A stretch of 64,000 nucleotides of DNA from Flavobacteriales bacterium (GTDB lineage: Bacteria; Bacteroidota; Bacteroidia; Flavobacteriales_D; Parvicellaceae): NCBI GenBank assembly GCA_025210295.1, contig JAOASC010000044.1, positions 1-64,000 of the forward strand. The letters are read 5' to 3'. Positions 51,370 through 55,613 of the stretch are shown piece after piece. The position numbers and the translations under genes are program-made. Position 1 is the stretch's first letter, and every line of letters begins with the position of its first letter. The notes beneath the pieces are model-generated. The model was not told where the DNA came from, ran no database searches, and saw only the letters and a program-made list of their open reading frames with translations.

Positions 51370-53268
51370 ATGTTAAGTCATATGAAGCTGAGGACACTTG
51401 TATATTTGTTTATAATATTTGTTTATTTCTTTTTTTCCTTTAATCAGTACAAAGATGAAAAGGTACATTTAGGGGGAGATAATGTTGCTTATTATTTATT
51501 AGCGAAAAACTTATCTCAAGGTAATGGTTATGTCGATAATCATGTTGTGAGTGAAAGAAATGGTGAGATTATTAAGTCTGTTCCTCATACACATTTTCCT
51601 CCTGGTTATCCAGCCTTGCTTTCTGTTTTTATGAAGTTTTTCGGGAGTGAAATTAATGTCGCAAAGAATGTCAATGGCTTTTTTTTATTGCTGTCTAGTA
51701 TCACACTCTTTTTTTTACTCCAAGCAATAAAGATTAATGAAAACATCGCTTTTATTTCATCGCTTTTTTTGTTGGGGAATTACTATATGCTCTACTTTTC
51801 GATGTATCTCTACAGTGAAGTCGCTTTTATGCTGTTTCTATTGTTGTTTCTGTATTCTTTTATAAAACAAATGGAGCATCAATTTTTTTGGAAGTCACCA
51901 TATTTTTATGTGTCTCTTGGTTCGATGATGGTGATGTTTTACATTAAATCAATAGCTGTAGCAGCCATATTTGCAATGTTGTTGTTTTTATTAAGTAAGA
52001 AAGAGTGGAAAAGAATATTGGTGTACGTAGGTTCATTTGTGCTGTTTTATTTGCCTTGGTCATGGAGGATGAAAGATCTAGCTCATACATCATACCTCCA
52101 TTATTTAACCTATAAGAACCCTTATAATCGAGAATTGGGAGTGATGGAGTTTTCAGATTATATCACTCGAATATTGATGAATTTTAAAAGATATATAGCT
52201 GTTGAAATCCCTGGAGGAATACTGTCTAATGACCCTTTGTATAACTATAAGGAGGATCCAGGGATGATGAGTTATGTCGTAGGGGTTGGAATTGTCTTAG
52301 TTGTTTTGTTTGGTCTTTTTAAATTAAAAAAATATTCAGGATATCTTTTTTTATCCTTAGGAGGCGTTTTTACCGTGTTGTTGTTGTGGCCAGAAGTTTG
52401 GTTTGGTAAACGATTTATTCTACCAATAATGCCAGTCCTTTTGGGGTTGTTTTTTTGGGGGATTTATCATTTGGTAATGGTTTTTGTGAAGCTGTTGAAG
52501 TTGTATAAGATAAAAAAGGGAATAGAGAAATATGGTGTTTACCTACTGTTGCTGTTTTTTATTCCTGGTAAAATCGGGTTTCATGAACTGAAAAAGAATG
52601 TTGATGCGAACCATATTCCTAAATATCATAATTATTTTCAAGCTGCCAAGTGGGTTAAATTAAATACTCCTGATACTTCAGTCACTGCATGTCGAAAGCC
52701 TAATTTGTTTCATTTGTATTCGGGAAAAACCGTAACTAATTATAGAAAGTCTTCCGATAAAGAAGAAGTGCTAGATGGGTTGATAAAATTGAAAGTAGAT
52801 TATGTTATTCTTGAATCATTAGGTTTTTCTTCTACTTCTAAATATTTGATGCCTACCATACAAAAATACCCTGGTAAGTTTAAAATGGAGTATAAAACAG
52901 GGAAACCAGAATCTTATGTGTTTCAATTTTTACCAGAAATGGGTTATGATGGAGAATGGAAAGGAGATAAAAAACATGGTAAAGGGAAGTACAAGTATTG
53001 GGATGGTTCTTCGTATGAGGGGGAGTGGAAAGAGAATATTAGAGAAGGAAAAGGGGAGTATTTGTGGAAAAGTAATAATCGATTTGTAGGGGAATGGAAA
53101 AATGACCTCAGAGAAGGTCAAGGCGTGTTGTTTTTATCGAATGGAAATATCATCAAAACAACTTGGGTTAAAGATAAAATGGAGGGGAAAGGAGAAGTTT
53201 TTAATGTCAAGACTAAAGAAAGAACTTTTGGCTTGTTTAAGAATAATAAGTTTATTCCTAATGTGTAA
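51370..53268 (+). CDS. PMT/ArnT-like membrane glycosyltransferase fused to MORN repeats
   Basis: A 632-residue protein (ATG 51370; ATG 51382 is an alternative that starts with a better-charged MKLRTLVYLF). The first 430 residues are polytopic with about ten helices and a GT-C-type first loop containing GGDNVAYYLLAKNLSQGNGY and THFPPGYPAL (an Asp near the end of the first helix, as in ArnT/PMT enzymes). A soluble region follows (about 430-520). Residues 526-610 are MORN repeats with a 23-residue period: YDGEWKGDKKHGKG, YEGEWKENIREGKG, FVGEWKNDLREGQG, then a degenerate fourth. MORN repeats usually bind lipids or proteins. GT-C enzymes use polyprenyl-phosphate sugars, which the DPM1-like GT2 at 54888 could make. 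The fusion is unusual. Confidence 0.85.
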   Translation: MLSHMKLRTLVYLFIIFVYFFFSFNQYKDEKVHLGGDNVAYYLLAKNLSQGNGYVDNHVVSERNGEIIKSVPHTHFPPGYPALLSVFMKFFGSEINVAKNVNGFFLLLSSITLFFLLQAIKINENIAFISSLFLLGNYYMLYFSMYLYSEVAFMLFLLLFLYSFIKQMEHQFFWKSPYFYVSLGSMMVMFYIKSIAVAAIFAMLLFLLSKKEWKRILVYVGSFVLFYLPWSWRMKDLAHTSYLHYLTYKNPYNRELGVMEFSDYITRILMNFKRYIAVEIPGGILSNDPLYNYKEDPGMMSYVVGVGIVLVVLFGLFKLKKYSGYLFLSLGGVFTVLLLWPEVWFGKRFILPIMPVLLGLFFWGIYHLVMVFVKLLKLYKIKKGIEKYGVYLLLLFFIPGKIGFHELKKNVDANHIPKYHNYFQAAKWVKLNTPDTSVTACRKPNLFHLYSGKTVTNYRKSSDKEEVLDGLIKLKVDYVILESLGFSSTSKYLMPTIQKYPGKFKMEYKTGKPESYVFQFLPEMGYDGEWKGDKKHGKGKYKYWDGSSYEGEWKENIREGKGEYLWKSNNRFVGEWKNDLREGQGVLFLSNGNIIKTTWVKDKMEGKGEVFNVKTKERTFGLFKNNKFIPNV

Positions 53269-53986
53269 TGAAATGATTAAGAAAATTTCCATACTTCTTT
53301 TGGTTAAGCATGATCGTACAAATATCCGTTTGATTCTCGATAAAATAAGAGAGGTTCAACTTGAGGATAATATTAGTAAAGAAGTTATAGTTGTTTATTT
53401 AAGCAAGATCAATGATCCTGTTTTAGGAATAGAGGATGATCCTGTTCAATGCGATGAATTTTCTGTTCGTTCATGTAGTATAACGCCCAATAAAAGCACA
53501 GGAAAGATGGTCCAAGAGACCATTCAAACGTGTTCAGGAGATTTTTTATTGATTCAAGAATTGGGGGTGCATTTTGATTCTACACTTTATAAAACGTTGT
53601 TAGCTCCTGTCTTTAAAGGGGGAGCAGATGTAGTATATGGGTCAAGGTACAAAGGAGGAAATGCCCATAGAACTTCTGCTTTCTTTCATAATACATTCAA
53701 TAAATTTTTGACTAAAATTTCTAATATGTTTACCAATCTAAATCTAACAGATGTAACTACTTCATATAAGTTAATAAGAACTGATATCGCCAAGCGTATA
53801 GTATTAAAAGAAGAGTGTTATGCTATAGAGTTGGTTGCAAAAGTTTCTAGAATCAAGGAGGTTAAAATATATGAAGTTGGTGTCTCATATCATGGCGAAG
53901 TTTGTCAAGTAAAATCAAGAGCTAAATTGGGAGCTGGAATAAGAGGTATTTATAGTGTATTAAAGTATAACTTATTAAAAGGTTAA
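53261..53986 (+). CDS. GT2 paralogue lacking catalytic motifs (likely pseudoenzyme)
   Basis: The start is ATG 53261 (241 residues, overlapping the previous stop by 8 bases) or ATG 53273; a longer frame back to 53102 lies inside the preceding gene and is rejected. The protein aligns over its full length with the intact GT2 at 54888-55613. Shared blocks are ADVVYGSRYKGGNAHRTS, SNMFTNLNLTDVTT, SYKLIRTDIA and KYEVGVSYHG-like KIYEVGVSYHG. Catalytic motifs are gone: IPAYNEE became LLVKHDR, VNDCSTD became VYLSKIN, and the metal site QDADLEYDP became QELGVHFDS. The frame is intact, so it is probably made. It may regulate or partner the active enzyme or the adjacent membrane transferase. Confidence 0.8.
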   Translation: MCNEMIKKISILLLVKHDRTNIRLILDKIREVQLEDNISKEVIVVYLSKINDPVLGIEDDPVQCDEFSVRSCSITPNKSTGKMVQETIQTCSGDFLLIQELGVHFDSTLYKTLLAPVFKGGADVVYGSRYKGGNAHRTSAFFHNTFNKFLTKISNMFTNLNLTDVTTSYKLIRTDIAKRIVLKEECYAIELVAKVSRIKEVKIYEVGVSYHGEVCQVKSRAKLGAGIRGIYSVLKYNLLKG

Positions 53987-53992
53987 AGCTGT

Positions 53993-54718
53993 ATGGAAGT
54001 TAAAAATGATGTAGTAGGAGAGTCAACATTATCTGCAATTAATAAAGCAGATAAGTTTAATGATTGGATGTATAGTACGATTGCAGAATTTTGTAAAGGA
54101 CATGTATTAGAAGTGGGAAGTGGTATAGGGAATATTTCCAATTGTTTTATTCGGGATAATAAGCAAATTATGCTTACAGATTTCAATGTAAGTTATTGTG
54201 AAACCTTGAGGAAAAAGTATCAGCACCACAAAAATGTATTAGGAGTTAAACTGATGGATTTAATTGATCCAAATTTTGATGAAAAACATCAAGATTTACT
54301 GGGGAAGTTTGATACGGTTTTTGCATTAAATGTTGTTGAACATATTCAAACGGATTTCACTGCGATTCAAAACTGTAAAAAGCTGTTAAGAAAAGGAGGG
54401 AATTTAATCATCTTAGTGCCTTCATACGATGCGTTGTATAACGGTATGGATAAAGAGTTGGGGCATTATCGTCGCTACAATAAAAAAAAGCTATCCACTT
54501 TATTTATAGCTAATGATTTCGAAATTATTCATAAACAATACTTTAATGCTATGGGAGTGTTTGGGTGGTTTTATACAGGGAAGTTATTAATGAAAAGGAT
54601 GATTCCTTCGAGCCAAATGGTGACTTATAATAAGCTCGTCCCGTTGTTTAAAGTAGTAGATAAAGCTTTGGTTCCCTTTTGGGGACTCTCTACTATAGTG
54701 GTAGGAAAAAAACGTTAA
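53993..54718 (+). CDS. Class I SAM-dependent methyltransferase
   Basis: A 241-residue cytoplasmic enzyme. The SAM-binding motif I is VLEVGSGIGNIS, followed by the acidic motif (LTDFNVSYCETLR), motif II-like FDTVFALNVVEHIQTD and motif III KLLRKGGNLIILVPS. The C-terminal part (GHYRRYNKKKLSTLFIANDF) is typical of methyltransferases in surface-polysaccharide clusters. It starts 6 bases after the pseudo-GT2 gene, so it belongs to that operon. The acceptor is unknown; a sugar or lipid-linked glycan is likely from context. Confidence 0.9.
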   Translation: MEVKNDVVGESTLSAINKADKFNDWMYSTIAEFCKGHVLEVGSGIGNISNCFIRDNKQIMLTDFNVSYCETLRKKYQHHKNVLGVKLMDLIDPNFDEKHQDLLGKFDTVFALNVVEHIQTDFTAIQNCKKLLRKGGNLIILVPSYDALYNGMDKELGHYRRYNKKKLSTLFIANDFEIIHKQYFNAMGVFGWFYTGKLLMKRMIPSSQMVTYNKLVPLFKVVDKALVPFWGLSTIVVGKKR

Positions 54719-54833: not shown

Positions 54834-54841
54834 TAACTTTG
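54834..54841 (+). promoter_or_regulatory. -7 box of the intact GT2 gene
   Basis: TAACTTTG matches TAnnTTTG and lies 46 bases before the ATG at 54888. It suggests the active GT2 is transcribed separately from the upstream cluster. Confidence 0.5.
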
Positions 54842-54887: not shown

Positions 54888-55613
54888 ATGAATCCTGTTA
54901 GAACTTTATCTATTTTAATTCCAGCTTATAATGAAGAAAAAACCATTCATTTAATTCTGGATAAAGTGAGGGCAGTTTCTTTAGTTAGTTCTATAGAAAA
55001 AGAAGTCATTATTGTTAATGATTGCTCTACAGATAATACAATAGAAGCTGTTGAGAAGTATAAAAGTCAGTATCCGGAATTCCCAATACAATTGTATAGC
55101 CAAGAAGTGAATAAAGGTAAGGGGGCTGCAATACATAAAGCTATAGAGCAAGCAACGGGAGACTATTTGGTTATTCAAGATGCAGATTTAGAGTACGACC
55201 CTGAAGAATATAATGATTTGCTCAAACCAGTACTTAATGGATTTGCAGATGTGGTGTATGGATCTCGTTTTATGGGAGGTAATCCTCATCGAATTTTATT
55301 CTATTGGCACAGTATAGGGAATAAGTTCTTGACAAGTTTGTCGAATATGTTTACCAATTTGAATTTAACAGATATGGAAACTTGTTATAAGCTAATAAGA
55401 ACAGATATTGCACAAAGCTTAAATTTAAAAGAGCAACGTTTTGGTTTTGAACCAGAATTGACTGCAAAATTATCTCGAGTAAAGAATATTCGAATCTATG
55501 AGGTTGGGATATCGTATTATGGAAGAACCTATGAAGAGGGAAAGAAAATTGGATGGAAAGATGGTTTTAGAGCAATCTATTGCATCTTAAAGTATAATCT
55601 TTTCTCAAAATAA
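54888..55613 (+). CDS. DPM1-like GT2 glycosyltransferase
   Basis: A 241-residue inverting glycosyltransferase of the dolichyl/polyprenyl-phosphate-mannose synthase type. Motifs are intact: LSILIPAYNEEKTIHLILDK, VIIVNDCSTDNTIEA, GKGAAIHKAIEQATGDYLVI and the metal site QDADLEYDPEEY, with FGFEPELTAKLSR near the C-terminus. There are no C-terminal membrane helices, so it is a short soluble form. It probably makes a polyprenyl-phosphate sugar, the donor type used by GT-C enzymes such as the one at 51370. It is the active paralogue of the gene at 53261. Confidence 0.93.
   Translation: MNPVRTLSILIPAYNEEKTIHLILDKVRAVSLVSSIEKEVIIVNDCSTDNTIEAVEKYKSQYPEFPIQLYSQEVNKGKGAAIHKAIEQATGDYLVIQDADLEYDPEEYNDLLKPVLNGFADVVYGSRFMGGNPHRILFYWHSIGNKFLTSLSNMFTNLNLTDMETCYKLIRTDIAQSLNLKEQRFGFEPELTAKLSRVKNIRIYEVGISYYGRTYEEGKKIGWKDGFRAIYCILKYNLFSK

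Follow-up and report, generated by a model that had tools for sequence, protein, structure and literature searches.

What keeps a gene open once the protein that it encodes has lost every recognisable means of catalysis, and an active relative lies close by? Here we address this question for two GT2 genes on the forward strand of a 64,000-nucleotide stretch of Flavobacteriales DNA (hereafter the window). The first (53261–53986) encodes a paralogue resembling dolichyl-phosphate mannose synthase (DPMS) that appears catalytically dead (hereafter the dead copy), and the second (54888–55613) encodes a predicted DPMS-like polyprenyl-phosphate glycosyltransferase with all motifs (hereafter the active twin; 241 residues; PF00535 4.6e-33). 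The two products share 106 of 236 aligned residues (45%; BLASTP E value of 1e-71). At an E value threshold of 0.01, the dead copy gave no Pfam match, PF00535 (Glycos_transf_2) included; its GT2 descent is nonetheless clear, because it is 45% identical to a family member.

An earlier note on this DNA had read the DAD, VNDCSTD and FEPE motifs as lost from the dead copy, and alignment bears this out. The nucleotide-binding motif VNDCSTD has become VYLSKIN (53393–53413), with the family residue D47 replaced by L. The DXD motif (residues 100–102; 53558–53566) has changed from DAD to ELG, so that the family residues D100, A101, D102 and E104 read E, L, G and H; among 111 GT2 family sequences checked, only the dead copy has no DXD. 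Aligned with live relatives, RFGFEPE reads CYAI--E, with a two-residue deletion inside FEPE. An additional loss is that of the A-loop (residues 213–226; 53897–53938), in which GRTYEEGKKIGW has become GEVCQVKSRAKL; residues 211–221 of this loop are modelled with low confidence by AF2. The reading frame itself is undamaged, as the same note had claimed: it is an intact open reading frame of 241 codons with zero in-frame stops. The twins do share length and sequence blocks, but their equal length is a coincidence, the dead copy having two residues more at the N terminus and two fewer at FEPE. Its frame is also open upstream into the preceding transferase gene (294 residues from 53102); the start is therefore uncertain, and from the sequence both 53261 and 53273 are plausible.

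For both copies, the nearest solved structure by sequence is that of Pyrococcus furiosus DPMS (PfDPMS; PDB 5mlz/5mm1). Modelled with AF2 (pLDDT 75.8), the dead copy has PfDPMS as its best PDB match (Foldseek E value of 1e-11; VIA-align Z score of 20.1 over 217 aligned residues), and PfDPMS is also the first Foldseek match of the active twin's model (pLDDT 87.5). The helix that follows the nucleotide motif (residues 51–61 in the twin) is missing, at low confidence, from the dead-copy model. The dead copy is thus predicted to retain the GT-A fold seen in the catalytic domain of DPMS. PfDPMS and the bacterial ArnC/GtrB are, like the active twin, polyprenyl-phosphate GT2s, with PfDPMS the nearest to both copies in sequence and fold; unlike these enzymes, which carry C-terminal membrane domains, both copies here are only 241 residues long and have none.

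The PfDPMS structure (PMC5526996) gives the lost residues a meaning: the metal-diphosphate is held by Asp91 and Gln93, from which the metal and donor role of the DXD is taken, and the base by Asp39. Closure of the acceptor loop falls to Arg202 and Lys208, and the phosphate of the lipid is bound by Arg117, Arg131 and Ser135. Missing from the dead copy, by comparison with PfDPMS, are the DXD, the Asp that contacts the base (D47L), the counterpart of Gln93 and the A-loop residues. The counterpart of Arg117 is kept as R129, whereas those of Arg131 and Ser135 are not clearly identifiable in the GT2 family here, active members included.

This retention is uneven along the protein. Among 65 aligned relatives, 105 positions reach an invariance of 95% or more, and the dead copy keeps 54 of them. 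The donor half (residues 1–118) keeps 17 of 40 invariant positions and the A-loop, which locks over the donor, one of nine, whereas the acceptor-side and interface-helix segment (residues 119–183; 53615–53809) keeps 24 of 32, including R129. The difference between residues 1–118 and 119–183 (Fisher P = 0.008) and the unevenness as a whole (permutation P = 0.017) are descriptive only, because the segment boundaries were picked after viewing the alignment. As judged from this alignment, the losses concentrate on the donor side and the acceptor side is largely kept. R129 and its neighbours may, however, have been kept for reasons of fold or oligomerization instead of lipid binding.

The dead copy has changed far more than its relatives, with 2.54 amino acid substitutions per site on its branch of a 39-sequence protein tree; the twin's branch has 0.097, and the median is 0.14. 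A branch of this length, in a protein left without any catalytic residues, next to a functional second copy and absent from all other genomes searched, would fit a redundant duplicate in decay whose frame is still open by chance. However, when we simulated neutral evolution to the observed divergence with the same base composition, around 11–12 in-frame stops were expected, compared with zero observed, and none of 400 runs left a stop-free gene; with a 15% neutral loss of amino acid identity, around 3% of runs kept a stop-free frame. Two-ratio codon maximum likelihood likewise rejected a dN/dS of 1 on the dead branch (2ΔlnL of 25.4 or 34.1, for two placements). The branch estimates, 0.051 or 0.026 for the two placements compared with 0.008 for the background of active copies, are rough because dS is saturated. 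Differences between the copies at the three codon positions (.418/.322/.573) also show coding constraint at the sequence level, although the twin's branch contributes to them. With zero stops in the frame and a dN/dS of 1 rejected, we rule out that neutral drift produced most of the divergence, and we regard decay as distinctly unlikely. Maintenance of the dead copy by selection, as a protein, is instead supported, with evidence from one genome; it is possible that a function was lost too recently to leave stops, following long constrained divergence. The description of the gene as dead but retained holds on both counts, with catalytic, metal, nucleotide and A-loop residues gone from a frame that has evolved under constraint.

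DPMS-type GT2 enzymes synthesise polyprenyl-phosphate sugars, and GT-C transferases consume these. The dead copy lies in a cassette with such a transferase: a polytopic GT-C-like protein (PMT_2; aTase) fused to C-terminal MORN repeats, encoded on the same strand (51370–53268), the end of which overlaps the start of the dead copy by 8 nt. The third cassette gene, for a SAM-dependent methyltransferase (53993–54718, forward strand), follows 6 nt after the dead copy. The overlap and the short gap would also suit an open frame that is kept for translational coupling of the transferase and the methyltransferase, the protein itself being idle. An open frame is all that coupling requires, however; it accounts neither for the constraint on amino acids along the branch nor for the uneven retention of residues, and we consider it improbable. 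The earlier proposal of one operon fits these three tightly packed genes, but the active twin begins 169 nt past the methyltransferase. This gap, together with upstream DNA similar to that of the orthologue in a related genome (G002), suggests that the active twin probably has its own promoter; an 8-nt sequence, TAACTTTG (54834–54841, forward strand), is a weak candidate for its −7 element, judged against what we take to be the Bacteroidota −7 consensus.

Comparison with related genomes accounts for the position of the dead copy. The window has the order LT–[GT-C, dead copy, methyltransferase]–GT2–omp–thioredoxin. G002 and G005 carry pabB–tilS–h96–LT–GT2–trx without the cassette, and G005 has an omp11 remnant match between GT2 and trx. 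In three sister species (G006, G003 and G004) the cassette is present as MORN-fused GT-C, live GT2 and methyltransferase, with one such GT2 each, and in distant Bacteroidia (G589 and G615) the order is GT-C, methyltransferase, GT2. The window's live GT2 clusters with the G002 and G005 copies (tree support of 97), and tree and position mark it as orthologous to the stand-alone GT2 that those genomes have at this site. The dead copy occupies the cassette slot that is held by a live GT2 in the sister species, beside the resident live GT2. The search for the same gene order elsewhere, which had been suggested at the outset, recovered the cassette in three sister species but with a live GT2 in the slot instead of a pseudoenzyme, which points to a species-level conversion of the cassette synthase and not to a conserved three-gene pseudoenzyme system.

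The dead copy was carried by one genome of one species among the genomes searched. No orthologue was found in six other members of the genus, in overlapping samples of genomes from the family (39), the order (399) and the class (395), or by a pattern scan of 85,000 species genomes with one genome per species; every match in the orthologue searches was an active-type GT2, at up to around 45% identity. An assembly or binning artefact could produce a gene unique to one genome, and the assembly is in 48 contigs. The locus, however, lies on a 152-kb contig, its flanks (lpp–OmpH–pabB–tilS–h96–LT and trx) are syntenic with G002 and G005, and the GC content and codon-position composition of the dead copy match those of its neighbours, leaving an artefact highly improbable. 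In the multi-copy genomes examined, no other degenerate second GT2 copy was found apart from three partial exceptions: L203 misses the FEPE pattern, L213 misses DDxSxD and L211 is a fragment at a contig end. A separate tandem pair of the family in G317 (L196:1501–2953; identities of 79% and 62% to the GT2 of the window) has catalytic motifs in both members, the second of which is without the usual A-loop sequence.

How the two copies came to adjoin is less constrained: the cassette may have arrived beside the resident GT2, or may have arisen on site by tandem duplication. We rejected gene conversion and recent duplication as origins of the shared blocks, as codons are identical at 54 of 107 sites with identical amino acids, compared with 50 expected at saturation; the longest identical DNA run between the copies is 15 nt. 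In the tree, many attachment points of the dead copy fit nearly equally (AU test), and its placement beside Brumimicrobium and Crocinitomix sequences is probably long-branch attraction. Its diagnostic residues (three cassette-type and four LT-type) are uninformative on origin.

We tentatively favour, at somewhat less than even confidence, a lineage-specific pseudo-glycosyltransferase that serves the cassette as a retained non-catalytic subunit, with a partner and function that we infer. With a resident stand-alone GT2 next door, the cassette's own GT2 could have become catalytically redundant and free to lose catalysis. The dead copy would be produced in step with the GT-C transferase because their genes overlap. 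It would still fold and still present the lipid-phosphate, membrane-facing surface of a polyprenyl-phosphate sugar synthase, and selection would keep this surface for contact with lipid, the GT-C transferase or the live twin. Docked on the transferase, paired with the active GT2 as a non-catalytic subunit, or both, it might then help to hand over sugar-lipid from the active GT2 to the cassette's transferase, or gate its delivery. The regulatory or scaffolding role suggested by the earlier note is therefore a plausible one. A narrower version, doubtful though worth stating, is that of a DPMS-fold pseudoenzyme whose retained lipid-phosphate side lets it serve a bacterial GT-C transferase as a subunit for docking or gating, the sugar-lipid coming from a separate active synthase. 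This would be a bacterial analogue of a split catalytic/non-catalytic DPMS complex, reached by conversion of the cassette synthase.

The same evolution, accelerated yet constrained, and the same retention of a predicted GT-A fold and acceptor-side residues could also reflect neofunctionalisation into an enzyme or binding protein that takes another ligand and is no helper of its neighbours, such as a metal-independent transferase or a lipid-phosphate binder unconnected to the GT2. However, a new conserved catalytic set is not recognisable from one sequence, and the gene remains in the transferase operon with its start overlapping; we consider this outcome unlikely.

A non-catalytic cassette subunit would have precedents. 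In accessory Sec systems, the GT4 transferase GtfA works with GtfB, which is itself inactive and binds the acceptor while GtfA transfers (PMC12809243). The likeness lies in an inactive glycosyltransferase-like protein alongside an active one, which for the dead copy is a reading of sequence alone; the difference is that GtfB belongs to a GT-B-type system for serine-rich repeat proteins, in which the partnership is established, whereas here it is proposed. In animals, the T-synthase paralogue Cosmc has lost its DXD. It acts as the chaperone of T-synthase (C1GalT1; PMC5493369). Here too, an active GT-A enzyme has a relative without catalysis, kept because the function of the active enzyme depends on it, and in our case, as far as genes can tell, inactive paralogue and active enzyme coexist in the same cell; however, Cosmc is a eukaryotic GT31 chaperone of the ER, outside the GT2 family. 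A literature search on pseudoglycosyltransferases found only enzymes of unusual chemistry such as ValL. Helper pseudoenzymes are a kind of protein that is already known, and the dead copy would be a species-level novelty within it. It offers a clean natural case of an enzyme turned non-catalytic protein, with informative contrasts: a live synthase in the sister slot, a live twin adjoining, and a donor side lost while the acceptor side is largely kept. Should the dead copy bind the GT-C transferase, this would reveal which surface of a sugar-lipid synthase is recognised by the transferase in bacterial GT2/GT-C pairs.

The MORN-fused transferase extends well beyond this locus. A literature search on MORN-repeat glycosyltransferases in Bacteroidetes found none, and full-length homologues with 34–39% identity over nearly the whole length are present in members of the genus and in distant Bacteroidia families (L116, L117 and L171–L178). 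Four in-frame stops (two TGA and two TAG) break up the homologue in G579 (L166). In the sister species G003 (L117:5129–6925, reverse strand), two genes stand ahead of the cassette: one with a SIS domain, which is GmhA-like, and one for a fused nucleotidyltransferase/HAD phosphatase, which is HddC/GmhB-like; these genes hint that the sugar donor of the cassette may be of the GDP-heptose type.
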